Origin: Pseudoalteromonas sp. '520P1 No. 423'
Lineage (GTDB): Bacteria; Pseudomonadota; Gammaproteobacteria; Enterobacterales; Alteromonadaceae
Assembly (NCBI RefSeq): GCF_001269985.1
Contig: NZ_BBZB01000002.1
Span: 62,001-126,000 of the forward strand
Length of the DNA: 64,000 bases
Direction of reading: 5' to 3'
A model generated the notes under the pieces. That model saw nothing but the letters and a program-made list of their open reading frames with translations, was not told the DNA's origin and did no database searches. A program made the translations under genes and the position numbers. Below are positions 11,526 through 30,025 of the stretch, in pieces (the first letter of the stretch is position 1; each line of letters starts with the position of its first letter).

Positions 11526-11690
11526 AATGTTCCTTTATTTTTGTATGCCGATAATGTCATTCTGATGTATCGCGCATATTGATTTGTTATTCTGATTGCA
11601 TTGTGTTTGGTTTACCTTTCCCTGTCTTACCGTGGCACATACTGTTATATTTCTATTTTGATAACCTATTAAATAAAGCTTTTTACCTTT

Positions 11691-11882
11691 TTAAAACCCA
11701 TTTTTATCGTCTTGTATACTGTGCTTTAGTGAGTCGATTGTAGGGTTTAAGTTTGCAGGTTTTATATGTTCTTGGTTAGAAAAATACTGCGCTATGGCAC
11801 GTATTTCCTTGAATGTATAATCTTTAAAGATATTACCCATCTCTTTGTTTGTTTTTTGACCTGATTTAAACATAAGCAACAT
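11691..11882 (-). pseudogene. C-terminal fragment of a class I cytochrome c
   Basis: Sixty-three residues reading MFKSGQKTNKEMGNIFKDYTF and then IRAIAQYFSN match the C-terminal part of cytochrome c4/c553-like domains, including the axial Met in NKEM. The CXXCH haem site is absent because upstream DNA is occupied by the end of the kinase gene (stop at 11904). It is a truncated remnant. No other gene is visible in 11526-11690. Confidence 0.6.
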
Positions 11883-11903
11883 GTTACAACAATAATCGGT
11901 ACG

Positions 11904-13658: not shown

Positions 13659-13769
13659 ATAATGCCTTGTTGCGCTTTAACTAATTATATAATTCACATT
13701 GATATCAAGTGTGATGTAAAGGCATTGAGTTTACTGCCTTTGCATCACTACCACGAAAGATATCAAGGA

Positions 13770-15254
13770 TTAACCTACATTTATCAATTGTACTGTTCCA
13801 TCGGCATTTACCTCTGCCATAGCGCCTTTTGGTTCGCTCATAAATAAAATAGCGATAAAGCCTACGACAGCACTTGCTGCAATCACCAAGAAAAATGTTT
13901 GATAATCAACTAAAGATAATATGGTTAAATATACAACTGCACCCACATTACCATAGGCTCCTGTCATGCCTGCAATCTGTCCTGTTAAACGTCTTTTTAT
14001 TAATGGTACAGCTGCAAATACCGCACCTTCACCGGATTGAACAAAGAAAGAACACAGCATAACTGCAGCGACTGCTAAATACAGCGGCCATTCACTGTTC
14101 AATTGAGCAAGAATAAAATAGCCTCCAGCAAGTCCAAACGTTAAAATTAACAATACTTTTTTTCTGCCAAACTTATCACTTAGCCAGCCGCCGACAGGAC
14201 GAGAGCCTAAATTCATAAATGCATATAATGAAGCTAGAAAACCTGCTTGCACTATATCTAAACTAAAAGTTTCACTAAAAAATAATGGCAGCATTGAGAC
14301 AACTGCTAGCTCAGAACCAAATGTCGCAAAGTATAAAATATTTAAAACCGCAACTTGCTTAAATGAATATCTGTGAACTTCTTCAACAGGCGTTTTAAAT
14401 ATATGGCCATTAACTCTCCAAGTTTGTTTAACTTCATATAAAAATAACAAAATCAAACAGAAGTAGATTCCGATAGCAAAGTTATCGGTAATCATATTGA
14501 CAGCTGCAGGAGATAATTTCCAAGTTAGTAATGCAAGTGCTGCATAAAGTGGTAATTTCATTAATAATAACAAGAAAAAGTCACCTGTTGATGTTACTTC
14601 CATAGCGCCAGTTGTTTTAGGCTTAAAGTATGTTGCGCCTTTTGGTGTATCAGACACATTGAAATACCAAATAAAACTAAATGCTAAACATAACAAGCCT
14701 GTTAACCCAATAGAATAGCGCCATGCGTTATCACCGGCAATGCCGATATCGACAAAATATAAAGTTAATACAGGTAATAACATAGCTGCGGCTGCTGAAC
14801 CAAAATTACCCCAGCCCCCGTAAATCCCTTCTGCGGTACCTAACTCATTTGCAGGGAACCATTCACTTACCATACGTATACCAATTACAAATCCGGCACC
14901 AATAAAACCTAACGCAAACCTGGCAATTGCAGCTTGCATAAATGAATCCGCCAACGCAAATGCAAAACAGGGAATACTCGATATAGCGAGTAAAAGTGCA
15001 TAAGTTATTTTAGGTCCATATTTATCAGTTAACATACCGATAACAATTCTAGCTGGGATAGTGAGCGCCACGTTGAGAATGAGCAATGTTTTTATTTGAT
15101 CTGAAGTTAAACCTAAGCTTTTTGCTATCATACCCAGCAATGGCGCGTGATTAAACCACACTAAAAATGTGATAAAAAACGCCATCCAACTTAAGTGTAG
15201 TATTTTCATCTTTCCTGAAAAAGACCTGAGTTTAATGCCCGCTGCATCAGTCAT
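13770..15254 (-). CDS. narK: Nitrate transporter, MFS NNP family
   Basis: Imports nitrate (and perhaps nitrite) across the inner membrane. It is a 494-aa protein with about 12 membrane helices. The NNP features are visible: [16 protein letters not shown] in helix 1, the first-half loop [10 protein letters not shown], nitrate-signature Gly-rich helices ([17 protein letters not shown] and [16 protein letters not shown]) and [18 protein letters not shown] precedes the ATG. The gene would be called nasA in some assimilatory systems. It precedes the kinase/phosphatase gene and has its own sigma54/NtrC-type control region, listed separately. Confidence 0.9.
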
Positions 15255-15328
15255 ATGTGAATCCTTATCATCTAAATATCTAATTTTTGATTAGAAATTG
15301 AAGTTTAATTTTATCTAAATGATTAAGA

Positions 15329-15343
15329 GCAAAGGCAATGCCA
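15329..15343 (-). promoter_or_regulatory. Sigma54 (-24/-12) promoter of narK
   Basis: On the minus strand the sequence is TGGCAT-TGCCT-TTGC, matching TGGCAY-N5-TTGC, with the invariant GG and GC at correct spacing. The predicted transcript start is about 63 nt before the narK ATG. Confidence 0.75.
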
Positions 15344-15405
15344 ATATGATTATTAAATATAAAACAATAAGTTAATGTTTTATCGTTTGCTATGAATGGA
15401 ATTGA

Positions 15406-15443
15406 AGCACCAAACAAAAACACCAATGCACAGCTTAAGTGCA
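15406..15443. promoter_or_regulatory. Tandem NtrC-like enhancer sites of narK
   Basis: The distal site 15427-15443 is a perfect dyad, TGCAC-N7-GTGCA. The proximal site 15406-15422 retains the half-site AGCACCA. They are offset by exactly 21 bp and lie 62 bp upstream of the -24 element. Consensus TGCACYA-N3-TRGTGCA is known for NtrC; binding is inferred. Confidence 0.65.
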
Positions 15444-15569
15444 ACTAATTGAGTGTCTTGATTGTTTGTTTATTAAACTAAAGTTTGATAAATACTCAGA
15501 TAATTCTATATTTAGCAATGAAGCTTTTCTTGTGTGTTAGTTATCAACTGCTCTATGAGGAATCAAACA

Positions 15570-16010
15570 ATGTTTAAACACTATAATAAAAAACAGTTCA
15601 GCATCATGTTCACTGCAATGCTTGTTGGGATGTTATCAACTCACTCTGTATCTGCAGAAATTGCAGTAATAGTTAACTCAGCCAATGGCTCTACTTTAGA
15701 TAAAAATTCAATTGAAAGAATATTCATGGGAAAAATGAAAAAATTCCCTAATGGCCAAGTAGCATTGCCAATGAATGCATCTAAAGGCATGAATTCTCGT
15801 GATGAATTTAATAAAGCCGTTATTGGTCGCTCTAGCAGCCAAGTAAATGCATATTGGTCCAAATTAGTTTTTACGGGTAAAGGAAGTATGCCTAATGAGC
15901 TCTCATCAGACGCAGAAATTATTGCAACCATTTCATCAAATAAAGGTGCGATAGGTTATATAAACTCAAGTTCTGTGACAGACGCCGTTAAAGTTATTGC
16001 TAAATTTTAA
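15570..16010 (+). CDS. Small PstS-like periplasmic binding protein
   Basis: A 146-aa secreted protein with a signal peptide cut near SVSAEIAV. It resembles the phosphate-ABC-type PBP-like domain: NSANGSTLDKNSIERIFMGK, DEFNKAVIGRSS, YWSKLVFTGKG and AIGYINSSS. It is about half the length of true PstS and has no transport genes beside it, so it is unlikely to feed a phosphate ABC transporter. GAGGA lies before the ATG at 15570; an in-frame start 12 codons upstream has no ribosome site. It forms an operon with the porin 11 bp downstream. Confidence 0.75.
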   Translation: MFKHYNKKQFSIMFTAMLVGMLSTHSVSAEIAVIVNSANGSTLDKNSIERIFMGKMKKFPNGQVALPMNASKGMNSRDEFNKAVIGRSSSQVNAYWSKLVFTGKGSMPNELSSDAEIIATISSNKGAIGYINSSSVTDAVKVIAKF

Positions 16011-16021
16011 GTGAGGACAAA

Positions 16022-17209
16022 ATGAAAGTTTTAAAAAAATCACTATCAGCCTTACTTGTATCAAGTGTTTTTATATCAGGCTATACAGTTGCTGATGTGA
16101 AAATTTCCGGCTTTGGGTCTGTTGTTGCAGGTCGAACTCTAGATGATGTAACGCTGGATAATGTTAACTATGATTGGAGTCAGCCTCCGAGTGCTTCTAA
16201 CCCACCATCAGTTACCAGAGAGCAAATATTAACAGCTGATTTCTATGACGTAGGTCAATATAGTAACGACTTTAGTTTTAAACCTGAAACCGTATTTGCA
16301 TTACAAGTTGTAGCTGATATGGGAGAAAATTTAAAAGTAACAGGCCAATTGGTTGCTAAAGGCACTGACGACTTTAGCCCTGAATTTGATTGGTATTATT
16401 TAACTTATCAAGCTACAGATGAGCTAACTTTAATGGCAGGAAGGCGAAATATCCCTATGTATTATTTTTCTGAGTTTTCAGAGGTGGGTTATGCGTACCC
16501 TTGGATGAGGCCGCCTTCAAATCTTTATTGGTGGCAAGTGACACAGTTTAATGGTTTAAATGCCATGTACGATTTTTCTTTGGCGGATTATTCAAATACG
16601 ATTAGTGTCTTTTATGGTAATGAATATTCCAATGATAACAAAGAAATGAAATATTACGATGAATTATATGGAGGCAGTGCAAAATCAGTCAATGAATTAT
16701 GGACAGATATCCTAGGATTTAATTGGAATCTTTCAGGTGATTTTTTTGATGTACGTTTTGTATATTTTCAAAATGATAGAGACAGAGAAACCATCGCTCA
16801 GGATGGTAGTATTGCAGATTACACTCCATTTTCACAAACGTTTTTAGGGTTTGGTGGCACAGTCGATCTAGCGATGTTCACATTTTTATTTGATTGGAAC
16901 CTGGTAACTTATGATGATGCCCATGGTACAGAGTTTCCTACATACTTAATTTCAGCAGTATATAACTTAGATGAGTTCCACCCATTTATTAGTTACTCAA
17001 AGGCTGATCATAAACGGAAAAAACGCGTTAACACTGAGGATTATGAAGAGCATTACATGCTAAGTTATGGTATTCGTTATGACTTTCACCCAAGTGCATC
17101 TTTTAAAATACAATATGATAAATTTGTAGATGAAGCGGTGCCTGAGTCTGGTTGGCGTTATCACGGTGATTCCGATACTGTCACAGTAGGAGTAGATTTT
17201 ATTTTTTAG
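16022..17209 (+). CDS. Porin-like outer-membrane beta-barrel protein
   Basis: A 395-aa protein with a signal peptide (cut near GYTVADVK) and a beta-barrel body with aromatic girdles. It ends in TVTVGVDFIF with a C-terminal Phe. GTGAGGA is the ribosome site. Related barrels often accompany short PstS-like proteins in marine gammaproteobacteria (family impression, not checked). The pair lies between narK and the nir operon, so a nitrogen-related role is possible but not shown. A strong terminator follows. Confidence 0.75.
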   Translation: MKVLKKSLSALLVSSVFISGYTVADVKISGFGSVVAGRTLDDVTLDNVNYDWSQPPSASNPPSVTREQILTADFYDVGQYSNDFSFKPETVFALQVVADMGENLKVTGQLVAKGTDDFSPEFDWYYLTYQATDELTLMAGRRNIPMYYFSEFSEVGYAYPWMRPPSNLYWWQVTQFNGLNAMYDFSLADYSNTISVFYGNEYSNDNKEMKYYDELYGGSAKSVNELWTDILGFNWNLSGDFFDVRFVYFQNDRDRETIAQDGSIADYTPFSQTFLGFGGTVDLAMFTFLFDWNLVTYDDAHGTEFPTYLISAVYNLDEFHPFISYSKADHKRKKRVNTEDYEEHYMLSYGIRYDFHPSASFKIQYDKFVDEAVPESGWRYHGDSDTVTVGVDFIF

Positions 17210-17215
17210 ATTTAG

Positions 17216-17260
17216 AGAAATAGCTACTGGGTGTTTTGGTAGCTATTTCTTTGAGTTTTA
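17216..17260 (+). terminator. Rho-independent terminator
   Basis: AGAAATAGCTAC and GTAGCTATTTCT form a 12-bp stem followed by TTGAGTTTT, just after the porin stop at 17209. Confidence 0.85.
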
Positions 17261-17327
17261 TTGAAGTACATTAATTTAAATAACTAAAATTATTAGTTAT
17301 TTTTATGCAAGATTTTTTTTTCCACGG

Positions 17328-17735
17328 CTAGCGCATTTTAATCCCGGACTCTAACAGGGTTGAGCGATATTCATCGTCTAGCCCTGACATTTTCTTTTTG
17401 GCCGCCATACTGGCTCGTTTCGACTCATCTTGCTTGAAAAATGCCATCCCTATCTTTCTCATAACGTTGAAGACCAGAGGACCTTGAGCTTTACGTATTC
17501 GTGACTCATCTTCTCTAAACGTCATATCAAGTACCCACTGCATACTTTCTACCTGCCAATGGCTTCGCACCGAATCTAGAGCCTCCTTGGCATTTAAGCC
17601 TAACGAGCTAATATACCAACGTGTCTCACTCGTCTCTTTACTTGTGGCCTTTTCAATAACATCTGATGTCACTTTGATGATGCTTTTTAGACCTTTGCAC
17701 TGATATTTCTTATCTAGCCATACTTTATCAATCAT
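17328..17735 (-). pseudogene. ISAs1-family transposase, 5'-truncated
   Basis: One hundred thirty-five residues match the C-terminal third of ISAs1-type transposases: VWLDKKYQCKGLKSI, RWYISSLGLNAKEAL, VRSHWQVESMQWVLDMTFREDE and GPLVFNVMRKIG. The N-terminal two thirds and the 5' end of the element are missing; unrelated sequence begins at about 17736. The catalytic Glu region (FREDESR) survives but the protein cannot be active. It abuts the truncated cadherin-like gene, suggesting that an IS-mediated deletion removed that gene's 5' end. Confidence 0.8.
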
Positions 17736-17787
17736 TAATAAATATAATATATCTGTTGAAGAAGTTGTAAGTTATGAAGGAAGATTC

Positions 17788-18924
17788 GTGTTTTTAGTTT
17801 CTGTTAATCAAGAGCTATATTTATCTTCTATGCAAATAAAACAAAATAAATTGTTTTTAGAGGCTTTACTGCATTTAGGTAATGGCAATAAATTCTCTAA
17901 TTTAGTTAAAGGTAACTCAAGTAACTTTTATGTCATAGACACAAACTATGGGAGTAACATTAGAGTTAGGCATATACAGATATTAACTGATTATTCTATG
18001 ATACAAATAACGTCAAAAGAGTTTGGCGTGATACCAGATAATCAACAAACTACTCATGAGCAACTTCTTGCCAGCCCTACTGATTCTGAATCAGATGTGG
18101 TTGCTTACAGTGTGTTAGAGCAAGGAGATAAAGGTGTTATCCGTATAGAAAGTAATATTATGACCTTTTTGCCTGAAATGAACCAAAATGGTGAAGATAG
18201 CACTAAATTATTAGTCAGTGATATACATGGTAATAGCACTGAATTTAATATCAATTATTCAATAACACCTGTAAATGATGCGCCTGAATTAGATATAGCT
18301 AAATTTGAAGTAGCTGAAGACACAGTATTAAATTCTGTTTTTAAAATTACTGAAGTCGAAAATCATATTCATGAATTTACTTTAAAGGATTCATCCCATT
18401 TAAAAGGGGAAATTAAAATAGAAAAAAATGGCGTTTTCGAATTTACGCCAAATAAAAACTTTAATGGTGATACATCATTTGAGCTGAGATTAACAGATGA
18501 AATTGGCGATACTTTTGATTATGAAATTAATATTGTAGTTACTCCTGTTGATGATCTTCCTTTCGTTGTGACGGTACTTGAAACTGTAGCTTATGAAAGT
18601 AATGTTAAAGGGAAATTTGCAACAACTTATATTGATGGAGATGTACTTGAATATTTAATTTTTTAAGGCCCATTACATGGTTCTGTCACCATTTCAAATA
18701 CGGGTGAATATAGTTATTCAGCTAATTCAGGTTTCACAGGGAAAGATTCATTTATTTATCAAGTATCAGATGGTGTTAATATAGTTTAAGGAAAAATAGA
18801 ATTAACAATCTTAGCAAAACAAGAAGCTAAAAAAGCCGAATCAAGTTCAGGTGGTAGTATTTCAATACTCTTGTTATGTTTACTACTTTTTAATATGCGT
18901 CGACTAATAAAAATCAATAATTAA
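17788..18924 (+). pseudogene. Cadherin-like surface protein with GlyGly-CTERM, remnant
   Basis: The 3' end of a large surface or secreted protein. It has cadherin-like/VCBS-type beta repeats with linkers ITPVNDAPELD and VTPVDDLPFVV, and acidic FEFTPNKNFNGD segments. After TAA at 18664-18666 the same frame continues (GPLHGSVTISNTGEYSYSA, GFTGKDSFIYQVSDG). A second TAA stands at 18787-18789. The frame then ends in SSSGGSISILLLCLLLFNMRR, a GlyGly-CTERM sorting signal used by rhombosortase, and stops at 18922-18924. The 5' part is missing at the ISAs1 fragment. Two nonsense codons plus truncation make it dead. Confidence 0.85.
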
Positions 18925-18933
18925 ACTTAAAAC

Positions 18934-18966
18934 AGCCTCAATATATTTTTATATCGAGGCTTTTTC
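18934..18966. terminator. Bidirectional terminator
   Basis: AGCCTCAATATA pairs with TATATCGAGGCT (one mismatch), followed by TTTTTCT on the plus strand. It lies between the convergent cadherin-like remnant and the nir operon end at 18975. Confidence 0.8.
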
Positions 18967-18974
18967 TATACAGT

Positions 18975-19976
18975 TTAATTAAAATATCGCATGATATTTC
19001 TATCATTCCATAAACAAGTTGCTTGCTCTAACGCTTCCCGACTATTTAATCTTTGAGTTAAACTCAACATTACAGCTAAAGTGCCTGTTATTGCAGATAT
19101 TGCATACTCATTTTGCAATTGACCTTGCCAAACAGATTTTAATTGTGAAATATCTTCCATATCTGCTTTGTGCTGCCTGCCAGAATATAACTGAGGAAAA
19201 TCTACTGTATGATTTAACCCCTCGTTATCATTTAAATGTAATGTGAATTCTCTATCTGATTTAACTTCGACTTCTCCACCCTCTCCTCTAAAACACGCAA
19301 CATTGGTATCATTAACTAAATTAGCAACTTGGATATGGCGTTCATCAAACTCTTTATGATATACCCCATGTAGGCTATAAGCGGCATTTGTAGGGTTTAA
19401 CATTCTGGCTAAGGTATTTGCACAGGTTCGCAAGCCGAATAGCTCTCTTAAATCAATGAGTTGCTTTAATTTAGGGTTGAGATCGCCTAATTCTACGTAA
19501 CAAAACCCATGAGCTTCTAAAAAGAGGTTTGCTTCAACCGTATTTGTACTGATCGGTAAGTTTAATAATTTGAAAACTTGGTCAAGATAAAGTCTTTGTG
19601 ATTGCGGCTCTTTAGTGCCATGCAAAAATACTTTTTGTCCACTATCTGCGAGAGTTAATACCGCTAATAAAAACCAAGGAAGTTGTCGACGTTTTCCTGC
19701 ATAACAACCAAGGTCTAAGTTAATACCTTTAATACTTTTAAATTCAGCTATTGTTGACTGACGCACTGCTTGTAAAAAACCGGCCAATTCATCTTCACTT
19801 TCTTCTCGTACTCTCAGCAGCATTAAAAAAGCGCCAAGTTGTTCTTTACTTACTTCACCATTAATTACTTGGTTCATAGCATCAAAGGCTTGTTCTTGGG
19901 ATAAATATTTACCTGCTTTTTTGCCTCGACCAATATGACGGATATATTCAGAAAAAGGGGTTTTAACTTGACTCAT
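18975..19976 (-). CDS. YbiB/TrpD2-like phosphoribosyltransferase-fold protein
   Basis: A 333-aa member of the anthranilate phosphoribosyltransferase-like family typified by E. coli YbiB. It begins with EYIRHIGRGKKAGKYLSQEQA and the helical N-terminal domain, then LDLGCYAGKRRQLPWFLLA, ELFGLRTCANTLARMLNP and HGVYHKEFD. YbiB proteins bind nucleic acids and lack proven transferase activity (literature knowledge). The start overlaps the cobA end by 14 bp, so the two are translationally coupled as the last genes of the nirB operon. Its role in nitrite assimilation is unknown. Confidence 0.8.
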   Translation of the reverse strand: MSQVKTPFSEYIRHIGRGKKAGKYLSQEQAFDAMNQVINGEVSKEQLGAFLMLLRVREESEDELAGFLQAVRQSTIAEFKSIKGINLDLGCYAGKRRQLPWFLLAVLTLADSGQKVFLHGTKEPQSQRLYLDQVFKLLNLPISTNTVEANLFLEAHGFCYVELGDLNPKLKQLIDLRELFGLRTCANTLARMLNPTNAAYSLHGVYHKEFDERHIQVANLVNDTNVACFRGEGGEVEVKSDREFTLHLNDNEGLNHTVDFPQLYSGRQHKADMEDISQLKSVWQGQLQNEYAISAITGTLAVMLSLTQRLNSREALEQATCLWNDRNIMRYFN

Positions 19977-20847
19977 TCACGACTTCACTCATTTTTAGCA
20001 TATCTAAATCAACAATTTGACGGGCATTGATCACTTCGCCCACAACAATCAGTGCAGGACCTAATAATTTTAACCCTTTCATTGTTTCAGTGATATCTTT
20101 TAATGTACTTATAATGACCTGTTGTTGTTCTGTCGCACCTTTATCAATAATCGCAATAGGCATTGTAGCTATCATGCCATGTTTGATCAGGCTTTCTCTT
20201 ATTTGATTAATGCGGTTTAATCCCATGTAAAATACTAAAGTATCTTTGCTGGATGCTAAATTTTGCCAATCAGCTTGTAATTCTTCCCGTTTTAAATGAG
20301 CAGTAACAAAACGAACAGATTGGGAATATTCTCTATGGGTTAAAGGAATACCTGAATAGGCTGCACAACCTGATGCGGCTGTAATACCGGGAACAATCGC
20401 AAATTTAATATTGTTATTTTTTAATGCATCTGCTTCTTCGGCTAAGCGTCCAAAAATACTGGGATCTCCTCCTTTTAATCGGACAACTTTTTTACCTGAT
20501 AAACCCGCTTTTACCAGTAAATTACATATATTGTCTTGTTTGATACTATGTTTACCACAACGTTTACCTACAAATACTTTTTGTGTTTTTTTTGGTATTA
20601 ATTGCAACATTTCGTCTGTGATCAAACTATCATAAAAAACGATTTCTGCTTCTTGCAACAGTCTATATGCTTTAATGGTTAATAACTCTGGATCACCAGG
20701 GCCAGCACCTATCAAGTAAACTTGTCCATGGCTTTCTTTATTTTTATTTATGTTTCTAACGTTATATTTTACGAGTAATTTTTTTATGCCGTTAAAGAAA
20801 GTCAAGTCACTGCTTATTCTCAATTGTGGCCAATTTAGCGCTGTCAT
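19963..20847 (-). CDS. cobA: Uroporphyrinogen-III C-methyltransferase
   Basis: Transfers two methyl groups from SAM to uroporphyrinogen III, making precorrin-2, the precursor of the siroheme needed by NirB. The SUMT signatures are clear: VYLIGAGPGDPELLTIKA (about 43-60), VVRLKGGDPSIFGR, GITAASGCAAYSGIPLTHR and TLVFYMG. The 294 aa include a 40-residue N-terminal extension of unknown use. There is no CysG oxidase/chelatase domain, so those steps are encoded elsewhere. Third gene of the nirBD operon. Confidence 0.92.
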   Translation of the reverse strand: MTALNWPQLRISSDLTFFNGIKKLLVKYNVRNINKNKESHGQVYLIGAGPGDPELLTIKAYRLLQEAEIVFYDSLITDEMLQLIPKKTQKVFVGKRCGKHSIKQDNICNLLVKAGLSGKKVVRLKGGDPSIFGRLAEEADALKNNNIKFAIVPGITAASGCAAYSGIPLTHREYSQSVRFVTAHLKREELQADWQNLASSKDTLVFYMGLNRINQIRESLIKHGMIATMPIAIIDKGATEQQQVIISTLKDITETMKGLKLLGPALIVVGEVINARQIVDLDMLKMSEVVNESS

Positions 20848-20914
20848 ACAGTAACTCCTGCTCTTAAGTTTTGATTTATGGGCGATAATCGCCCATTATT
20901 TTTATATAAATATG

Positions 20915-21256
20915 CTAAGCAACTTTCAGCTGCACTAAATCATCAATAATGCGTGTTTTAAATACGGCAACTGATTTAGTTTCATCTTGTATGCATAAAC
21001 CTGAAGTTAATGAAAAGTGTTGTTTATATAATGGTGATGAGACAACGATATCTTCATCAATTGAGCCTATAATGCCCCGGTATAAAACATTTGCTTTACC
21101 AATTGGATCGTAATTACTGATCGCATAAGCTTGGTTAGTAGCTTTAAGATAAAAGATAGCGACTTGTTGTTCATCATTAAGCAATGCGCATATACCAGAA
21201 TCATGTATTAAATCTTGTTGTTGGCAAATTGTTTGCCATTTTGTTGCAGCAGTCAT
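20915..21256 (-). CDS. nirD: Nitrite reductase (NADH) small subunit
   Basis: A 113-aa Rieske-fold NirD protein without cluster ligands, the partner of NirB. It contains WQTICQQQDLIHDSGICALL, VAIFYLKATNQAYAISNYDPIGKANVLYRGIIG and the family C-terminus GLCIQDETKSVAVFKTRI. The usual [2Fe-2S] Cys/His ligands are absent, as in other NirD proteins. It starts 10 bp after nirB ends. Confidence 0.92.
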   Translation of the reverse strand: MTAATKWQTICQQQDLIHDSGICALLNDEQQVAIFYLKATNQAYAISNYDPIGKANVLYRGIIGSIDEDIVVSSPLYKQHFSLTSGLCIQDETKSVAVFKTRIIDDLVQLKVA

Positions 21257-21266
21257 AGAGTGCTCC

Positions 21267-23795
21267 TTATAATTCTTTGATTGTGATCAGTTGTTTTTCA
21301 TCTGGTGTTGCAGGTCTTATTTGCTCACGTTCTGTAACAAACTGAATATTGCTATCGGTAAGTTCGCTATTAACAAATTGACGGAAACGCTTAAGAGACT
21401 CAGGGTTTTCAATCGTGGTTTTCCATTCACATTGGTAACTGTCTACAACACTTTGCATCTGACTTTCTAACTCAAGTGCTAATCCTAAGTTATCTTCAAT
21501 AATGACTTGTTGTAAATATTCTAAACCGCCATCAAGTTCTTCTAACCAAACTGAAGTGCGTTGTAACCTATCTGCGGTGCGAACATAAAACATCAGAATG
21601 CGATCAATATATCTAACCATAGTTTGCGTATCTAAATCAGTTGCAAATAAGTCGCCATGACGTGGTTTCATACCGCCATTACCACATACGTATAAATTCC
21701 AGCCATTTTCAGTAGCTATGATCCCGATATCTTTACTTTGTGCTTCGGCACATTCACGTGTACAACCTGATACTGCAAACTTTATTTTGTGAGGAGAGCG
21801 CAGACCTTTATACCGGTTTTCAAGTTCAATTGCTTGTCCTACACTATCTTGCACACCATATCGGCACCAAGTACTACCCACACATGATTTAACGGTACGT
21901 AATGATTTACCGTATGCATGACCTGTTTCAAAACCAGCTTGAATTAATTCTTCCCAAATAGGCGGTAGTTGATCAACTCTTGCACCAAATAAATCAATAC
22001 GTTGACCACCAGTAAGTTTGGTATATAAATTGTATTTTTTAGCAACTTCACCTAGTACTATGAGCTTGTCAGGTGTTATTTCGCCACCAGCAATACGAGG
22101 CACAATTGAATAGGTACCATCCTTTTGCATATTACCCAAATAGGTATCATTGGTATCTTGTAAAGGTAAGTGGCTTTGCTCCAGAATATACTCATTCCAC
22201 ACAGATGCTAAAATATTGCCAACTGCGGGTTTACAAATTTCGCAACCATGGCCTTTACCGTGCTTATCTCTTAATTCATCAAAAGATTTTATTTGCTCTA
22301 CTTTTACAATATGGAATAATTGTTTACGGCTATAAGCAAAGTGTTCACAAATGTCATCTTTTACTTCTACGCCTAAAACAAGTAATTCTTTATCGACTGT
22401 TGTTTTTAATAATGCAGTACAACCACCACAGCCAGTACTGGCTTTAGTGCATTGTTTTAGTTCAGATAAATCAGTTGTACCATCAGCAATCGCTTGTTTG
22501 ATATCGCCTTTAGTTACATTGTGACAAGAGCAAATCATTGCACTATCTGGTAGCTCAAATGCACCCATAGGTTCTGCATCCGAAGAGTGTGGTAAAATTA
22601 AAGACTCAGGAGCGTCTGGTAAATCCATATCGTTAAGTGAAATCTGCAATAACGAATCGTAATCACTGGTATCCCCTACCAATACAGCACCTAAAATTTT
22701 ATTTTTATCTTCATCAATGACAAGTTTTTTATAAACGCCTTTGATTTGGTTTTCAAATATATAAGATTTTGAGCCAGGTGTTTTAGCATGTGCATCGCCA
22801 ATAGAACCAACTTCTACACCCATTAGTTTTAATTTAGTGCTCATATCAGCACCATTAAACATCATTGAACCGCCACTTAATTGATCGGCCACAACACGTG
22901 CCATGGTATAACCTGGTGCAACTAAGCCAAAAATGAAGTTTTGCCACAATGCACATTCTCCGATGGCGAATATGTTTTCATCTGAGGTTTGGCATTGGTC
23001 GTTAATTACGATACCGCCACGTTCACCTATTGCTAAGTCGAATTTTTTAGCCAATTCATCTTGTGGTCTAATACCGGCTGAAAATAAAACCAGATCGGTT
23101 TCTAACTCTGTACCATCTGAGAACTTCAATTTATAACGGCATAAATCACCTTGTTCGATAACTTGTGTGGCTTTTTGGGTATGAACGGTTACACCTAAAT
23201 CTTCAATTTTATTTTTTAATAACTTACCACCAGCTTGATCAAGTTGAACAGCCATTAGCTGAGGTGCGAATTCAACTACATGGGTATCTAACCCTAATTG
23301 TTTAATTGCGTTGGCAGCTTCTAAGCCTAATAACCCGCCACCTATGACAACCCCCACTTTTCCTGATTTAGCAGAAGCACTTATTGCCTCTAAATCTTCT
23401 ATTGTGCGATAAACTAAGCAATGTTCTTGAGTGTTACCTGGGATGGGCGGGACAAATGGATATGATCCTGTCGCTAAAACCAGTTTGTCGTAATGATACG
23501 TTTGGCCAGACCTTGCTGTGACAAATTTATCAGTGCGATTAATATCAGTTATTTTTTCATTGGTAACAAAATTAACGCCTAGTTCATCATAATGCTCAGA
23601 TGTCGTTAACGCTAAATCATTAGCACTCTTACCACCAAAAAACTCTGATAAATGCACTCTATCATATGCTAACCTTGGCTCTGCTGATAAAACAGTAATG
23701 TCACATGCTTGTTGTTTTTCAACCATACTTTCGACGAACTGATGACCAACCATGCCATTACCAACAACTAATATTTTTATTCTATTCGTATCCAT
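21267..23795 (-). CDS. nirB: Nitrite reductase (NADH) large subunit
   Basis: Reduces nitrite to ammonium with NADH in the cytoplasm; 842 aa from ATG 23795. It has an FAD/NAD domain (ILVVGNGMVGHQF at the start, GVVIGGGLLGLEAA about 150), then a BFD-like [2Fe-2S] domain (MICSCHNVTKGDIKQAI about 420, CTGCGGC-type ligands STGCGGC). The siroheme/[4Fe-4S] domain follows with CVGSTWCRYG and SGCTRECAEAQSKDIG. An ATG five codons upstream overlaps the AGGGG ribosome site, so MDTNRIK is the better start. It is the first gene of nirB-nirD-cobA-ybiB and is preceded by a consensus sigma54 promoter. Confidence 0.93.
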   Translation of the reverse strand: MDTNRIKILVVGNGMVGHQFVESMVEKQQACDITVLSAEPRLAYDRVHLSEFFGGKSANDLALTTSEHYDELGVNFVTNEKITDINRTDKFVTARSGQTYHYDKLVLATGSYPFVPPIPGNTQEHCLVYRTIEDLEAISASAKSGKVGVVIGGGLLGLEAANAIKQLGLDTHVVEFAPQLMAVQLDQAGGKLLKNKIEDLGVTVHTQKATQVIEQGDLCRYKLKFSDGTELETDLVLFSAGIRPQDELAKKFDLAIGERGGIVINDQCQTSDENIFAIGECALWQNFIFGLVAPGYTMARVVADQLSGGSMMFNGADMSTKLKLMGVEVGSIGDAHAKTPGSKSYIFENQIKGVYKKLVIDEDKNKILGAVLVGDTSDYDSLLQISLNDMDLPDAPESLILPHSSDAEPMGAFELPDSAMICSCHNVTKGDIKQAIADGTTDLSELKQCTKASTGCGGCTALLKTTVDKELLVLGVEVKDDICEHFAYSRKQLFHIVKVEQIKSFDELRDKHGKGHGCEICKPAVGNILASVWNEYILEQSHLPLQDTNDTYLGNMQKDGTYSIVPRIAGGEITPDKLIVLGEVAKKYNLYTKLTGGQRIDLFGARVDQLPPIWEELIQAGFETGHAYGKSLRTVKSCVGSTWCRYGVQDSVGQAIELENRYKGLRSPHKIKFAVSGCTRECAEAQSKDIGIIATENGWNLYVCGNGGMKPRHGDLFATDLDTQTMVRYIDRILMFYVRTADRLQRTSVWLEELDGGLEYLQQVIIEDNLGLALELESQMQSVVDSYQCEWKTTIENPESLKRFRQFVNSELTDSNIQFVTEREQIRPATPDEKQLITIKEL

Positions 23796-23868
23796 TTGAG
23801 CCCCTATCATGTTAGTGAATTACACCTAACTTTCATTACAACTGTTATCAATGCTATATATTAGAATG

Positions 23869-23883
23869 GCAATAAGAGTGCCA
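23869..23883 (-). promoter_or_regulatory. Sigma54 (-24/-12) promoter of nirB
   Basis: On the minus strand TGGCAC-TCTTA-TTGC is a perfect match to TGGCAC-N5-TTGC. The predicted start of transcription lies about 62 nt before the nirB ATG at 23795. Confidence 0.85.
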
Positions 23884-23943
23884 TTATTTAACCTTTTAAA
23901 TTTCAATAGCTTATTGTATTTTATGTTTTTTGAGTCAGCTGTT

Positions 23944-23981
23944 TGCACTATTATGAAAAGGGATTGCACTTAGGGTGTGCG
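23944..23981. promoter_or_regulatory. Tandem NtrC-like enhancer sites of nirB
   Basis: The distal site 23965-23981 reads TGCAC-N7-GTGCG. The proximal site 23944-23960 begins TGCACTATTATG, a perfect left half. They are 21 bp apart and lie 60 bp upstream of the -24 box. Confidence 0.65.
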
Positions 23982-24012
23982 TGAAAATTAAGGCTAAATA
24001 TTCAGTAATTCT

Positions 24013-24034
24013 GCGCGAATAAATTCCGGCCTAC
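24013..24034 (-). repeat. REP-like unit with GTAG head
   Basis: On the minus strand GTAGGCCGGAATTTATTCGC has the GTAG tetranucleotide followed by an imperfect palindrome, the form recognised by RAYT transposases. A single unit. Confidence 0.45.
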
Positions 24035-24078
24035 AGATTTATTTAAATACAAGGTTCTGATAACGACTCAATATAAAA

Positions 24079-24116
24079 CAAAAAAAGCGTATCAACTCTC
24101 AAGGTAAGATACGCTT
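24079..24116 (-). terminator. Rho-independent terminator
   Basis: AGCGTATC (24086-24093) pairs with GATACGCT (24108-24115). On the minus strand the stem is followed by a run of seven T. It ends the nasA transcript after the 123-aa gene. Confidence 0.8.
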
Positions 24117-24163
24117 AGGTTTTGGTTGGAGCCAAATCGGTTAATTTAATACGATTGAATCAA

Positions 24164-24535
24164 TTAGTTAATGTTAGGTTTTATACATCTGGGCTGCCAC
24201 TGCCACCATTGTTGTTCACCATCTGGGGTATTGTCTTTTGTTTGATGTATATCCCAAGTGATCAAATAATTGGGATTGATCACTTTTATGTCAGCTTGAC
24301 TGGTATGAAACTCGCCTTTTGGTGCTACAAACCAGCATGATAAATCACCAGGAATAATAAATTCTGCTTGGTTCGTTTTATCTGAAACAAGTCTTAATGT
24401 AATGCCTATTTCTTTATCGACGGACTTAACTGTACCTGCTAAAACAGTTTTTTTAAGTGTTTTACCGCTTATGTCAAAGTAACTCAATGCGATAAGGCAC
24501 GACTTGTTAAGTGTATCATTTATGTCTTTAAGCAA
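24164..24535 (-). CDS. Small conserved-looking protein in nas operon, function unknown
   Basis: A 123-aa soluble protein without signal peptide or obvious motif; I do not recognise it. Beta-rich segments (VLAGTVKSVDKEIGITLRLV, AEFIIPGDLSCWFVAPKGEF) suggest a small barrel such as an SH3-like or PilZ-like fold, with a Trp-rich tail (QQWWQWQPRC). It is the third gene behind nasA and the FeS/anchor fusion, 90 bp away with a REP pair in between, and ends at a strong terminator. Its position suggests a maturation or regulatory role in nitrate reduction (inference). Confidence 0.65.
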   Translation of the reverse strand: MLKDINDTLNKSCLIALSYFDISGKTLKKTVLAGTVKSVDKEIGITLRLVSDKTNQAEFIIPGDLSCWFVAPKGEFHTSQADIKVINPNYLITWDIHQTKDNTPDGEQQWWQWQPRCIKPNIN

Positions 24536-24564
24536 TTTAATACCTTAATAATGTTGTAATATTT

Positions 24565-24619
24565 GTAGGAGGGTCTTTAGGTCCGAATAAATACTTTCGT
24601 GTCTAAAGCTAACTCCTAC
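24565..24619. repeat. BIME-like pair of inverted REP units
   Basis: GTAGGAG at 24565 and CTCCTAC ending at 24619 face each other, with CTTTAG and CTAAAG inside. Each half is GTAGGAG plus a degenerate palindrome around CTTTAG. It lies between two genes of one operon and could fold into a long hairpin that tunes expression of the downstream gene. Confidence 0.6.
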
Positions 24620-24625
24620 AATTAT

Positions 24626-26602
24626 TTAATGGGCTAAAGGCGCGACACCTGTTGCTGGGTTATCTGCTAAACCCACATCTCTAGCATGTTGTTCAAATCC
24701 TTTATTTTTCCAAAAGAATGCACCAGGCATGGTTGTTGGAATAACTAAAATATAAAACAAAGCACGACCAATTAGAGATGTAATACAGTTTAAAATTGCG
24801 AATAAACCCCATAATATTAACTGGTTGCCTTCTAATATATTAAGGAGCTGAGCACTCAATAAAACACAGGTGAATAAAATATTTACAGCTAATAAAGTGT
24901 TTCTTAAAAGGTATGTTTTGCCAAAAGTTGTATTTTGCACATAATGGGCTGCACCGCCTTCATTTTCATTACGGTTTAAATCTGAGTTATGTTTTATTAA
25001 GCCTAAAGCTTCAAAGAACATACCTAGAATAAATACCATGCTAAATACGAATAAAGACTGGGTTAAATCAATATTCATTACATATAAAGTCGGTAATATG
25101 ATTATTGCACTTGTCATAGCGCCTAGAGACAAAGTATTGCCTATAAATGCGGTTGCAGTTTGTAGGTGATTCCAAAATGGACGCGCTTTTATTTGGTAAC
25201 ATTGATTCATATAATACAGACCTGCTAACCCTGAAATAACTGCAAACATACCAGTGCCAATAATGATATTGTTTAATGGCAATGTTTGCGTTAATTCGAC
25301 TAAATCTAAACCAATATAGGCTTTTGTTAAGCCTACTAAGGTTTTATTTAGTGGTAATGAAAATAGCGCCGTAAGGCCACAACCCGCACTAAACATGGCT
25401 AAACCAAATCCTTCTCTGCTCATTGGGGAATGCCTTAAATTATTAAATCCACGGTAAAATCTAAATGGTTTGCCTAAATGTGTCACGCTCATAAATAAAC
25501 CAAATGAGGTCATGAGTAAAGCGATGACAGTGAGTGGTAAAAACATGTCTGAAACCATGAATTGCTCAAATGATGTGATACCCAACAGAGCTGCAATAAA
25601 TGGAATTAAAAATGTACCTAAAGCTGCTTGGGCAAATAAAGTAAATAAAACTAAAGGGTTTTCTCTGCTATTTAACTTCCCAAAATTCCAGCTTCTGGCT
25701 TTGCCTTTCTTTTGATCAATAACAGGTTTGTAATCACCTTTGTCATTTTTATGATATTTAACGGGCATATCATCAGTACGTGTCATTTCATCAGGTAAGC
25801 TTTTGGTTTGTTGAAAACGTATATTTGGGTTTGTAATGCTTGGATCAGGGAAACCTGGTATAGATATTTTACATTGTTGACGTTTTTCAGGCGTATTTTC
25901 AATTACGCCAAAATCTAATGCATTGCCAACACAGGCGGAGACACAAGCAGGCTTTAGTCCAACCTCTAATCTATCAACACACATATTACATTTAGAGACC
26001 TGACCTTCTACTGGGTCTAACTGAGGTGCATTATAAGGGCAAACCCAAGTACAATAACCACAACCAAAACATGTATCCGGATCTTGTAAAACAGCGCCAT
26101 ATTCAGCATGTTTAGTATAAGCACGCGTTGGACAGCCCTTTAAACAGACAGGATCATCACAGTGATTACACGCCATAGAAATATTCATGCGTTTATAATC
26201 AGGGTATGAGCCCCCTTCAACATAACCAACAGATCTAAATGATAAGTGGGCAGGAGTTTCATTTTTTTCTGCACATGCTGATTCACATGCATGACAACCA
26301 ATGCAGTTATCTGCTGTGAAAAAGAAACCATGTTGTTTATTTCTATTAGGGTTCGAACCCACTTCTGGATTTTCATTAATAAACATTGATCGCTCTTTTG
26401 GATGATCGGTAATATCTATTAAATCAATACGTTTACCATAACGATTGGTCTCTTTTGCTTTAACATCAGGTAAGTACGCATATTTTTGCTCATCAGTTCT
26501 CACTTCCCAATGATTTGAGCGCCCTGCCTGCTCTTTTGAAACTTTCATCGTTTTAGGATCAAAGCTTTGTACATTCAATTCTTCTTGTCTTGCTTTAGTC
26601 AT
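24626..26602 (-). CDS. Fused four-cluster ferredoxin and DmsC-like membrane anchor
   Basis: A 658-aa fusion. Residues about 90-240 are a DmsB/NrfC-type ferredoxin with four [4Fe-4S] Cys groups: CIGCHACESAC, CNHCDDPVCLKGCP, CFGCGYCTWVCP and CNMC...CVSAC. After a linker come about eight membrane helices of the DmsC/YnfH anchor family (from FTLFAQAALGTFLI onward, including FGLFMSVTHLGKPFR). It would take electrons from quinol and pass them to NasA. It starts 11 bp after nasA ends. No signal peptide is seen, so the clusters should be cytoplasmic like NasA. This is unlike the NADH- or ferredoxin-linked NasB/NarB systems. Confidence 0.88.
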   Translation of the reverse strand: MTKARQEELNVQSFDPKTMKVSKEQAGRSNHWEVRTDEQKYAYLPDVKAKETNRYGKRIDLIDITDHPKERSMFINENPEVGSNPNRNKQHGFFFTADNCIGCHACESACAEKNETPAHLSFRSVGYVEGGSYPDYKRMNISMACNHCDDPVCLKGCPTRAYTKHAEYGAVLQDPDTCFGCGYCTWVCPYNAPQLDPVEGQVSKCNMCVDRLEVGLKPACVSACVGNALDFGVIENTPEKRQQCKISIPGFPDPSITNPNIRFQQTKSLPDEMTRTDDMPVKYHKNDKGDYKPVIDQKKGKARSWNFGKLNSRENPLVLFTLFAQAALGTFLIPFIAALLGITSFEQFMVSDMFLPLTVIALLMTSFGLFMSVTHLGKPFRFYRGFNNLRHSPMSREGFGLAMFSAGCGLTALFSLPLNKTLVGLTKAYIGLDLVELTQTLPLNNIIIGTGMFAVISGLAGLYYMNQCYQIKARPFWNHLQTATAFIGNTLSLGAMTSAIIILPTLYVMNIDLTQSLFVFSMVFILGMFFEALGLIKHNSDLNRNENEGGAAHYVQNTTFGKTYLLRNTLLAVNILFTCVLLSAQLLNILEGNQLILWGLFAILNCITSLIGRALFYILVIPTTMPGAFFWKNKGFEQHARDVGLADNPATGVAPLAH

Positions 26603-26613
26603 AATAACCTCTC

Positions 26614-28803
26614 CTAAAATACGCGACGTTCAACATTCAAACGTGCCGCTTCAACTTGATCTATTTGTTCAATTTTTACTGAGCACTGCTTAAATGCAGG
26701 TTGACGAGAATAAGGGTCTAGTAGACCTAAAGTTAAACGATTGACACAATCGTGAAAATGAAATGGAATAAACACCATATTGCGAGGAACCCTTTGCGTA
26801 AGTTGTACCATGACAACCGCATCCCCTCGCCTGCTAGTCAATCTAACGTAAGACTGGTGGCTAATACCTAGCTCAATAGCTGCATCTGGGTTCATTTCCA
26901 TATATACAGTTGGGCTAAATTTATTACAGTTACCAATTTTCCCTGTTCGAGTACGGGTATGAAAATGTTCAACGACCCTGCCGCTGTTTAACCAAAAAGG
27001 AAACTCATCACAGGGTTGTTCATTATTATTGTAAAAGTTAACGGGAATTAAGTTAGCTTTGCCTGATTGTGTTTGGAATTTTCCATCAGTATATAAACGC
27101 GGATCTCCTTTTAAACTGGTTTGCCCTTCCCGATAAGGCCATTGAATACCTTTCGCTTGTTCAATTTTTTCATAACTCATGCCTGAAATATCTAATGTTC
27201 TATCTTTGCCTTTAGACAGTTGCTTCATTTCATTAAATACATCTTCAGGAGCGTCAGGAAAATTAATAATCTTGCCATTATCAAAACGTTTGGCCAGTTG
27301 GTTAAAAATCCAAAAATCAGGTTTAGCGTTTTTATATGGTGGCATGGCATTGTTTATTAAATTCACACGACGTTCTGTATTGGTATGACAGCCTTGTTTT
27401 TCAGCCCAAACAGCTGCAGGGAAATAAACATGGGAATACTGGTTCGTTTCTACATCTTCATAAACATCCTGAATCACTAAAAAATCTAAATTTTCTAATG
27501 CTTTGCGAATACGGGCTGTATTTGGCATGGAAGTCATTGGATTGGTTGCAACTATCCACATGCCTTTTATTTCACCGGTTTCAATTGCGGGAAAAATATC
27601 AGTTTCAGCTAATCCGCGTTTTTTAGGGAAAAACTCAGGATCGATACCCCAAAACTGTGCAATTTCTTTTCTATCGGCTTCGTTTTCTAGATAACGGTAA
27701 CCAGGTAAGCCAGAACAAGATGACCATTCTCTTGTGCCCATAGCATTACATTGACCCGTAATTGATAAACTTGTCCCTCCTGGCTTGCCTATATTGCCAG
27801 TTATCAGGTTAAGGTTATTAATATTAGCGACACCGTCAGAGCCATGAGTTGATTGATTAATGCCCATAGTCCAAATAGACATAGCAGCTGGTGCTTTGGC
27901 GTAGATTCGTGCCACGTTTCTTATGGTATCTTCATCTATACCACAAATATGTTGTGCTGTTTTTGGTGAGTAGTCTTGTACTAAAGTTTTTATTTCATCA
28001 AAACCTTCAGTATGTGCATTAATATAGTCTTGATCTTGTAACTCTTCATTGATGATCACATACATCATTGAATTGATTAATACACAGTCGGTACCTGGGG
28101 TGATAGGCAGATGAATATCAGCAAATTGCGCCAGCATAGTGACACGAGGGTCTACAACAATCAGAGGGAACTTTCTTTTTTCTAACGCTTCTTTCAAACG
28201 CCAATAAATGATTGGATGTTGCTCCGGTAAATTTGAACCAAACGCCATAAAACAATGGGTATGTTCAAAATCATCATAACATCCTGGCGGGCCATCAGAA
28301 CCAAATGATCTTTTATAACCACTTACCGCTGATGCCATGCATAAAGTCGTATTACCATCATAGTTGTTTGTGCCAATACAGCCACGAGCGAGTTTACCTA
28401 AAGTATAAAACTCTTCTGTTAATAATTGACCGCTTGAGACAATTGCAAAAGCGTCTTTACCATATTTTTTTTGTATTTCTTTTATTTTTTCAGCTGTAGT
28501 ATCTAAAGCATTATCCCAAGAAGTTTTCTCAAAAGACTCAAAATGTTTTTCTCTTATTAAAGGCTCACTACCTCGACCTGGGCTTTCAAATAACTCATGC
28601 TCTAAAATACCTTTAATGCAGAGCTTTCCGCGATTTACATCAGCCCCTGCATGGCCGCGAGTTGTAACAATTTTATTTTCTTCGTTTAGACCAATTTCAA
28701 TTGAACAGCCCGTAGAACAGTAATTACATGTTGTATACTTCCACTGTGCAACTTTTTTACTTGGGATTTTTATTGGTTTTCTTTTTTTTCGCCCAAACAA
28801 CAT
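26614..28803 (-). CDS. nasA: Assimilatory nitrate reductase catalytic subunit
   Basis: A 729-aa molybdenum bis-MGD enzyme reducing nitrate to nitrite. The N-terminal [4Fe-4S] ligands are Cys26, Cys29, Cys33 and Cys62 (CNYCSTGC and GKLCIKG). LCMASAV at about residue 154 supplies the Cys ligand to Mo seen in Nap/Nas enzymes. Other family motifs are GSNLPEQHPI, SIWTMGINQSTHG, NNLNLITGNIGKPGG and, near the end, HFHDCVNRLT. There is no Tat signal, so it is cytoplasmic. It lacks the C-terminal [2Fe-2S] domain of some NasA proteins. First gene of its operon, with a sigma54/NtrC-type control region upstream. Confidence 0.9.
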   Translation of the reverse strand: MLFGRKKRKPIKIPSKKVAQWKYTTCNYCSTGCSIEIGLNEENKIVTTRGHAGADVNRGKLCIKGILEHELFESPGRGSEPLIREKHFESFEKTSWDNALDTTAEKIKEIQKKYGKDAFAIVSSGQLLTEEFYTLGKLARGCIGTNNYDGNTTLCMASAVSGYKRSFGSDGPPGCYDDFEHTHCFMAFGSNLPEQHPIIYWRLKEALEKRKFPLIVVDPRVTMLAQFADIHLPITPGTDCVLINSMMYVIINEELQDQDYINAHTEGFDEIKTLVQDYSPKTAQHICGIDEDTIRNVARIYAKAPAAMSIWTMGINQSTHGSDGVANINNLNLITGNIGKPGGTSLSITGQCNAMGTREWSSCSGLPGYRYLENEADRKEIAQFWGIDPEFFPKKRGLAETDIFPAIETGEIKGMWIVATNPMTSMPNTARIRKALENLDFLVIQDVYEDVETNQYSHVYFPAAVWAEKQGCHTNTERRVNLINNAMPPYKNAKPDFWIFNQLAKRFDNGKIINFPDAPEDVFNEMKQLSKGKDRTLDISGMSYEKIEQAKGIQWPYREGQTSLKGDPRLYTDGKFQTQSGKANLIPVNFYNNNEQPCDEFPFWLNSGRVVEHFHTRTRTGKIGNCNKFSPTVYMEMNPDAAIELGISHQSYVRLTSRRGDAVVMVQLTQRVPRNMVFIPFHFHDCVNRLTLGLLDPYSRQPAFKQCSVKIEQIDQVEAARLNVERRVF

Positions 28804-28845
28804 AATAACTTCCTGAAATTAAATTAAACGCTCAGTAGATATAAC

Positions 28846-28860
28846 GCAGATACTATGCCA
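28846..28860 (-). promoter_or_regulatory. Sigma54 (-24/-12) promoter of nasA
   Basis: On the minus strand TGGCAT-AGTAT-CTGC keeps the invariant GG and GC with correct spacing, with one mismatch (CTGC for TTGC). The predicted transcript start is about 31 nt before the nasA ATG. Confidence 0.65.
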
Positions 28861-28910
28861 AATAAAATATCCTTTAATTTCAATGAGTAATGCTTGATGT
28901 GATGTAATAA

Positions 28911-28948
28911 TGTGCTTTGATGGTGAGGTGTTGGAATATATTGGTGCA
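28911..28948. promoter_or_regulatory. Tandem NtrC-like sites of nasA
   Basis: The distal site 28932-28948 ends in a perfect right half TGGTGCA. The proximal site 28911-28927 ends TGGTGAG. They are 21 bp apart and 50 bp upstream of the -24 box. They are weaker than the sites at nirB and narK but have the same layout. Confidence 0.5.
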
Positions 28949-29054
28949 ATTATAATGCTGAAAAGAGTTATTGTATTATTTGCAATTTATGTCAAAAAAC
29001 AATCGACCTTTTTACCGCATAGTTCTATATTTAGTTAATAAGTAAAATACTTAG

Positions 29055-29900: not shown

Positions 29901-30025
29901 GTTTTGTAAATTTAATAACCCTAAATTTGATTTTCAACATAAAAACCATGCTTTTTATCTTATTTCTTTGCACTTATTACCATTTTAATGTTTCATGTCT
30001 GTGGACAATAAAATGGAAGACACAA

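Follow-up and report, generated by a model that had tools for sequence, protein, structure and literature searches.

The 64,000-nucleotide stretch of the genome of Pseudoalteromonas sp. '520P1 No. 423' analyzed here (hereafter the window; positions 62001-126000 of the 1.32-Mb contig C2, in a 5.39-Mb genome of two contigs) carries on its minus strand the nitrate assimilation genes nasA, nirB-nirD and narK, which, probably together with a porin gene, appear to form the nitrate branch of the NtrC nitrogen-starvation regulon, with promoters predicted to work through a helically phased loop bent by the integration host factor (IHF). We assign this reading a probability of about 0.85. It draws on the boxes, the sites, their positions and conservation, and the presence of ntrC and rpoN, all read directly from the sequence. 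The initial annotation had proposed a single sigma54/NtrC nitrogen regulon of nasA, nirB and narK, and this proposal is well supported at the sequence level, with the same sites and spacing found at glnA and glnK-amtB, the classic NtrC targets.

Promoter elements of the nitrate genes and the porin

A sigma54 (RpoN) promoter consists of a -24 GG and a -12 GC element at fixed spacing, and the strict pattern TGGCAYN5YTGC was used to locate such boxes. The window contains four, all on the minus strand: those of nasA (28846-28860, TGGCAT-N5-CTGC, a position at which related nasA promoters have a box too), nirB (23869-23883, TGGCAC-N5-TTGC) and narK (15329-15343, TGGCAT-N5-TTGC), and a fourth one, missed by the initial annotation, at 1499-1513 upstream of the porin gene. 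Four strict boxes compare with 0.51 expected, a number reached in 0 of 100 shuffles, and genome-wide the pattern occurs 50 times vs 14 times when reversed; the sigma54 boxes of the window are beyond chance. All four have an NtrC-like site upstream. Among the other 46 strict boxes of the genome, six have an NtrC-like site (at least 8/10) at 28-241 bp, and these were treated as background.

The NtrC-like sites were compared with the consensus TGCAC-N7-GTGCA, and their distances are counted between the first base of the site and the T of the -24 box. The distal site of narK is a perfect palindrome, TGCACTTAAGCTGTGCA (15427-15443, minus strand as are all sites described here, 10/10, 100 bp), with the half-site GGTGCT at +21 (15406-15422, 4/5). 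The distal site of nirB (23965-23981, 9/10, 98 bp) is accompanied at +21 by the perfect half-site TAGTGCA (23944-23960), and the distal site of nasA (28932-28948) matches the core at 8/10, at 88 bp. The box and site coordinates predicted for the three promoters proved correct when re-read from the sequence, as did the gaps of 50, 60 and 62 bp from the -24 box to the nearest site at nasA, nirB and narK, respectively. The claim of two sites offset by exactly 21 bp is borne out at nirB and narK. At nasA no half-site of at least 4/5 was found at +21, and the supposed proximal site (28911-28927) is weak, at 6/10 (3+3, counted by hand).

The perfect palindrome occurs at six places in 5.39 Mb (reversed control: 0), three of them upstream of glnA, glnK-amtB and narK. 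The other three, in or beside the unrelated rpoA, collagen-like and HAD-like genes (as judged by eye), have no sigma54 box nearby and were rejected as targets. Sites with up to one mismatch, such as that of nirB, number 55 in the genome vs 30 in the control, while the window has about as many sites with up to two mismatches as chance predicts (24 vs 22.6 expected); such sites were not counted as evidence, so that the nasA site, with its two mismatches, rests on its position and conservation and not on its letters.

The porin-like outer-membrane protein (24-1229, minus strand; PF13372, Alginate_exp) is preceded by a promoter that spans 1499-1602 and lies outside the region covered by the initial annotation. 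Its proximal NtrC-like site (1565-1581, 9/10) lies 68 bp from the -24 T, and a perfect distal half-site TAGTGCA (1586-1602) exactly 21 bp further up, at 89 bp. Of the 23 genomes of the genus that bear a nasA, 16 have a homolog of this porin (39-44% identity) within 4 kb of the divergent nasA type, as would fit a role in nitrate use; the genome studied here is not among the 16, its porin and nasA being about 26 kb apart. A perfect FNR-type box, TTGAT-TTTA-ATCAA, lies at 1306-1319 (minus strand), upstream of the porin. It is kept at the two nearest porin homologs (L227 and L228), both of which lack the sigma54/NtrC promoter, and hence the porin may have two promoters, one of the sigma54/NtrC type and one with the FNR-type box.

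Between the NtrC site and the sigma54 box, each of the four promoters contains an IHF-like element at 30-31 bp above the -24 T that matches the pattern YAANNNNTTGAWW (the reverse-strand form of the IHF consensus, in which one position has been made stricter and another looser) at 8/9 or 9/9: TTACTCATTGAAA at nasA (28878-28890, 8/9, 30 bp), TAAGCTATTGAAA at nirB (23901-23913, 9/9), TAACTTATTGTTT at narK (15362-15374, 8/9, 31 bp) and TAACCAACTGAAT at the porin (1532-1544, 8/9, 31 bp).

Core targets and spacing in related genomes

The genome has one ntrC match above the family cut-off (TIGR01818, 701 bits vs 558.6), about 2 kb downstream of glnA, and one rpoN (PF04552 at C1:183105, 243 bits). A one-mismatch NtrC site is also present between glnA and ntrC (G000:C1:119841-119857). 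At glnA, identified by eye from its translation, an NtrC palindrome lies at 100 bp with a perfect half-site 21 bp down; at glnK-amtB, supported by PF00909, the palindrome lies at 79 bp with a 4/5 half-site 21 bp up. The offset is the same at narK (100/79) and nirB (98/77), and the distances are nearly so. The combined pattern GTGC-N17-GTGC-N45-75-TGGCA has seven matches in the whole genome (reversed control: 0), namely glnA, narK, nirB, the porin, the glnK-amtB pair in the opposite direction and two within open reading frames (ORFs). The last two (C1:3623493 and C2:493255) were set aside, as they lie within ORFs and have no -12 box; the match at C1:3353003, which also has no -12 box, is the reverse reading of the glnK-amtB pair. 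The predicted pair of sites two helical turns apart is found at nirB, narK, the porin, glnA and glnK and was not detected at nasA at 4/5 or better, and the distal site, said to be the better match in each case, is so at nasA, nirB and narK, while at glnK and the porin the proximal one is better.

The comparison of upstream regions in related genomes, which the initial annotation had suggested, revealed that the layout recurs at nasA, nirB and narK. We searched 108 genomes of the genus, 80 of the order and 115 of the class. Upstream regions could be read from 39 nasA-related loci and the window (37 for nasA, 12 for nirB and 11 for narK), and a core-target set was composed of 30 glnK and 30 glnA loci of the order, those of the genome studied here included. 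With a sigma54 score of at least 10.4 as the promoter filter, an acceptable box was found in 32 of 37 nasA, 11 of 12 nirB, 10 of 11 narK, 30 of 30 glnK and 26 of 30 glnA promoters (own promoters counted). Nine of these (nasA of L032, L033, L034, L036, L038, L040, L041 and L043, and glnK of L165), whose best box lies away from the conserved position, were left out of the IHF, partner-offset, periodicity and co-shift counts; all nine were kept in the list of 103 distances described below.

Among the 14 of 24 nasA promoters with both an NtrC and an IHF-like site, the best NtrC site lies at 88-89 bp in nine, including that of the window, at 98 bp in L018, and at 69-70 bp, i.e. at the position of the proximal site, in three Shewanella loci and one Colwellia locus. 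The nirB site lies at 98-101 bp in 10 of 11 promoters. The offset of the partner site is 21-22 bp at glnA (23 entries in 26 anchors) and nirB (7 in 11), 19 bp at nasA (12 in 17), 19 bp (6 in 10) or 21 bp (2) at narK, and 31-33 bp at glnK (16 in 27, with 18-22 bp in 5 of 27). The pair is thus common, but its exact offset is not conserved.

The distances from the NtrC site to the -24 box in promoters of the five genes form a ladder, with clusters at approximately 69, 79-80, 88-90, 100-103 and 110-112 bp. When collapsed to distinct combinations of gene, clade and distance, the list has 103 entries at 60-140 bp, none of which falls at 71-77, 83-87, 93-97 or 104-107 bp; off-ladder entries are found at 64, 113-115, 125-129 and 139-140 bp, some of which are half-site overlaps 13 bp apart. 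Because overlapping half-sites give false matches at that interval, sites less than 16 bp from a better site were dropped from the periodicity test. With a period of 10.5 and a core match of at least 8/10, 143 sites gave R=0.66, and R=0.60 after they were collapsed to 33 clusters per gene and distance (Rayleigh p 8e-6), vs R=0.09 (42 clusters, p 0.28) when their distance was taken to the start codon instead; at the stricter cut-off of 9/10, 70 sites gave R=0.73 (22 clusters, p 2e-5), vs R=0.20 to the start codon (32 clusters, p 0.08). A scan of periods returned a best value of 10.35 for the 103 entries and of 10.55 for the stricter 47. A weak replicate comes from the class-wide glnK promoters: 13 of 28 promoters passed the filter and their 19 sites gave R 0.50, the 15 failing ones including L201, a short locus with a misplaced upstream stretch. 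The remark in the initial annotation that phasing is roughly kept at the three promoters was correct and understated, as the relatives exhibit a ladder of about 10.5 bp.

The IHF-like element is similarly recurrent. At 8/9 or better, YAANNNNTTGAWW has 102 matches in 101 promoters vs 25.6 (standard deviation 4.9) when the letters are shuffled. Of the 102, 51 begin 30-31 bp upstream of the -24 T. The forward IHF consensus has 39 matches vs 22.2 (standard deviation 4.7), 23 of them at 18-19 bp. The 30-31 bp position is occupied in 10 of 11 nirB, 18 of 24 nasA, 13 of 29 glnK and 8 of 26 glnA promoters, and the forward consensus at 18-19 bp is found in 16 of 26 glnA, 6 of 29 glnK and 1 of 24 nasA promoters. 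Promoters that combine an IHF-like site (8/9) at 26-45 bp with an NtrC site (8/10), i.e. 14 of 24 for nasA, 10 of 11 for nirB, 6 of 10 for narK and 19 of 29 for glnK, were used to compare the shifts of the two elements. The NtrC-IHF distance at nasA comes to 58 bp wherever the distal site is the anchor (10 of 10 promoters), with positions of 88-89/30-31 in nine and of 98/40 in L018, where both elements lie about 9-10 bp further out (39-40 bp in the four promoters anchored on the proximal site). At narK it is 69 bp in five of six promoters, the positions being 100/31 for the promoter of the window and 110-111/41-42 for those of four relatives, and at nirB it is 68-70 bp in 10 of 10. In the narK and nasA cases, judging from these positions, the IHF-like site shifts together with the NtrC site.

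Proposed mechanism and alternative explanations

Such an arrangement suggests the following scheme. Phosphorylated NtrC (NtrC-P) would bind a stronger and a weaker site separated by about two helical turns, with site centers at approximately -97 and -118 when the -24 box is numbered in the usual way (nasA and the porin: closer by about one turn); IHF would bend the DNA at the predicted site just above the -24 box, and the bend would help the NtrC oligomer to reach the RNA polymerase-sigma54 complex waiting at -24/-12, so that the nitrate genes would be activated on nitrogen starvation. A short bent loop requires the sites to face the same side of the helix, and hence spacing would evolve mostly in whole turns. 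A stronger version, to which we give somewhat better than even odds, holds that natural NtrC enhancers in this group of bacteria follow a strict grammar, in which the NtrC sites, the IHF site and the sigma54 box are phased modules, the NtrC and IHF sites form a rigid block, and spacing changes only by whole turns.

Several observations weigh against this interpretation. Eight nasA loci (from beta-proteobacteria, Pseudomonas and Neptuniibacter) have no NtrC-like site of at least 8/10 at 60-130 bp from their best box, save L041 with one at 125 bp; L033 and L041 have NtrC-like sites nearer the gene. These eight and glnK of L165, with a best box off the conserved position, are cases against universality. 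The partner site at nasA is weak, as described above, and the lack of the sigma54/NtrC promoter at L227 and L228 speaks against membership of the porin. The ladder blurs above approximately 113 bp, and since the promoters share ancestry, the p-values are approximate. With a decoy motif, R was 0.25 over 36 sites (30 clusters, p 0.31) and, at the stricter cut-off, 0.76 over just 4 sites (p 0.10). The pattern YAANNNNTTGAWW is AT-rich and was fixed after the promoters had been printed, with every position scanned, and it also occurs at 2 of 30 other sigma54-like boxes of the genome. At narK the IHF-like element is found at 30-31 bp in 1 of 10 promoters and at 41-42 bp in five more, with none at 26-45 bp in the remaining 4 of 10. 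The -12 boxes of the core targets are imperfect (AAGC at the own glnA and TTGG at the own glnK, neither among the 50 strict boxes), and both promoters were therefore accepted on the -24 box and its place. At glnK the -12 box has no C (TTGA, TTGT, TTGG or alike) in 29 of 29 promoters (L138-L164, L166 and L167, the own one included and the misplaced L165 set aside), while the -24 box is near-perfect in most, and this is a consistent, gene-specific departure from the sigma54 consensus.

The most serious of the alternatives, although we regard it as unlikely, is that the phasing reflects a short loop that is torsionally stiff or intrinsically bent, with the AT-rich IHF-like element being the bend itself or a by-product, and IHF unneeded. 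The stretch above the -24 box is indeed AT-rich, the four narK promoters mentioned above do without the element, and the enhancers of LuxO at the qrr genes are helically stepped with no IHF site named in the relevant section of that report (PMC4740811). The element is nevertheless four times commoner than in letter shuffles and concentrated at one position, it moves with the NtrC site, and it is rarer at other sigma54-like boxes, occurring at 2 (reverse pattern) and 1 (forward) of the first 30 of the 46 strict boxes outside the window. A smaller regulon, in which nirB and narK alone are NtrC targets and the matches at nasA and the porin arose by chance or are remnants of former sites, would explain why nasA has no half-site at +21 and why the porin promoter is not conserved, and it agrees with the chance level of two-mismatch sites in the window; we consider it improbable, because the nasA site at 88-89 bp recurs in relatives and the porin combines a box, a half-site pair at exactly 21 bp, a phased distance and an IHF-like site.

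The nitrate promoters could also be driven by a different sigma54 activator that recognizes a similar GCAC/GTGC site, and the genome does contain 17 further places with an NtrC-family match of at least 140 bits. Against this, the same site, pair offset and distances are found at glnA and glnK-amtB, none of these NtrC-family matches lies in the window, and no activator was detected among the window proteins scanned, which makes another activator a very unlikely candidate. Least probable of all, in our opinion, is that the conserved spacing merely mirrors the common ancestry of the promoters, many of which are orthologs from related genomes: the periodicity disappears when distances are measured to the start codon (R 0.09 vs 0.66), and distances in different clades differ mostly by whole turns, with the gaps of the ladder empty in all 103 entries.

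Nitrate genes, known systems and implications

The predicted IHF-assisted nitrate branch comprises, on the minus strand, genes whose assignments are based mostly on family searches. NasA (26614-28803) is an assimilatory-type molybdopterin nitrate reductase matched by the TIGR01591, NF047855 and NapA models, all under their curated cut-offs. Its closest relative (93% identity) is encoded in L037, Pseudoalteromonas sp. NBT06-2, which by coordinates appears to be the genus genome G070; this nasA type is present in only 2 of 108 genomes of the genus (the own one and G070), the other 21 with a match showing best identities of 34-37%. Adjoining nasA, a single ORF (24626-26602) fuses a DmsB-like Fe-S part with a DmsC-like membrane anchor, which looks unusual for a partner of an assimilatory nitrate reductase; a match to this fusion is present in 36 of the 39 nasA-related loci. 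It is followed by nirB, the large subunit of nitrite reductase (21267-23810; TIGR02374 and NF011565, above cut-off), a nirD-like small subunit (20915-21256; PF13806, Rieske_2), a uroporphyrinogen-III C-methyltransferase downstream of nirBD (19963-20847; TIGR01469, above cut-off) and narK, a nitrate/nitrite MFS transporter (13770-15254; TIGR00886, above cut-off). Directly downstream of narK and on the same strand, 11904-13658 encodes a fusion of a PP2C phosphatase and a protein kinase, possibly in one transcript with narK. Divergent from narK, 15534-17209 contains a PBP-like and a porin-like ORF, both under Pfam cut-offs, the latter with a partial 89% match at a contig end of L037. An Rfam scan of 11000-30000 returned 0 matches.

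Elements of the proposed architecture have precedents. E. coli glnAp2, with NtrC sites near -108 and -140, likewise has two NtrC sites upstream of a sigma54 promoter, spaced three turns apart there and two here, although many of the related glnK promoters have offsets of 31-33 bp. The nifLA promoter of Klebsiella has two NtrC sites near -142 and -163, 21 bp apart. NtrC activation reportedly depends there on the face of the helix (Minchin et al. 1989), as is predicted here, but nifLA is a different target and a single promoter, whereas the present case compares promoters across genes and genomes. NtrC, sigma54 and IHF are reported to act together at one E. coli promoter, glnHp2 (Claverie-Martin and Magasanik 1991), whereas in the present case IHF-like sites return at fixed positions in the promoters of glnK, glnA, nasA, nirB and, in part, narK.

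That IHF can assist sigma54 promoters is well established (PMC7962754, PMC7057263). In Vibrio, the section on qrr/LuxO reports 61 putative tandem enhancers with loops of about 80-120 bp clustered at approximately 11-bp steps, i.e. the same helical fingerprint; it concerns LuxO and one gene family and names no IHF site, whereas the present case concerns NtrC, five gene families and a co-shifting IHF-like site (PMC4740811). According to the available parts of a survey of Proteobacteria, the core of the NtrC regulon consists of glnA, amtB, glnBK and ntrBC, with extensions to nasAB, nitrite reductase and narK in alpha- and beta-proteobacteria, and with urease and urea transport named for Alteromonadales; those parts do not discuss the geometry of the sites (PMC5343134). 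Here, the nitrate branch is proposed for Pseudoalteromonas and other gamma-proteobacteria. In Pseudomonas stutzeri, mutation of ntrC strongly lowers expression of the nas genes (PMC8443478). A literature search outside most subscription journals found no work on nitrate NtrC promoters in Pseudoalteromonas or Alteromonas and, among the matches listed, no paper on this architecture and no survey of IHF/NtrC spacing. The regulon itself is of a known type; what merits a specialist's attention is the NtrC-IHF geometry, with its joint shifts, across several gene families.

If the prediction is right, a promoter grammar that can be read from sequence links nitrate reductase, nitrite reductase, nitrate transport and perhaps an outer-membrane porin of this marine Pseudoalteromonas with general nitrogen starvation, and it could serve the annotation of NtrC targets in other genomes. 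The geometry predicts that insertions of 10-11 bp will be tolerated and insertions of 5 bp will not, and that IHF will be needed. Should the strict form of the grammar hold, a half-site, 21 bp, a second half-site, a phased gap and a -24 box would alone suffice to find members of the regulon in raw sequence. NtrC enhancers are regarded in textbooks as distance-independent elements; under the strict grammar, such independence would be a capability of the enhancer and not what selection keeps.

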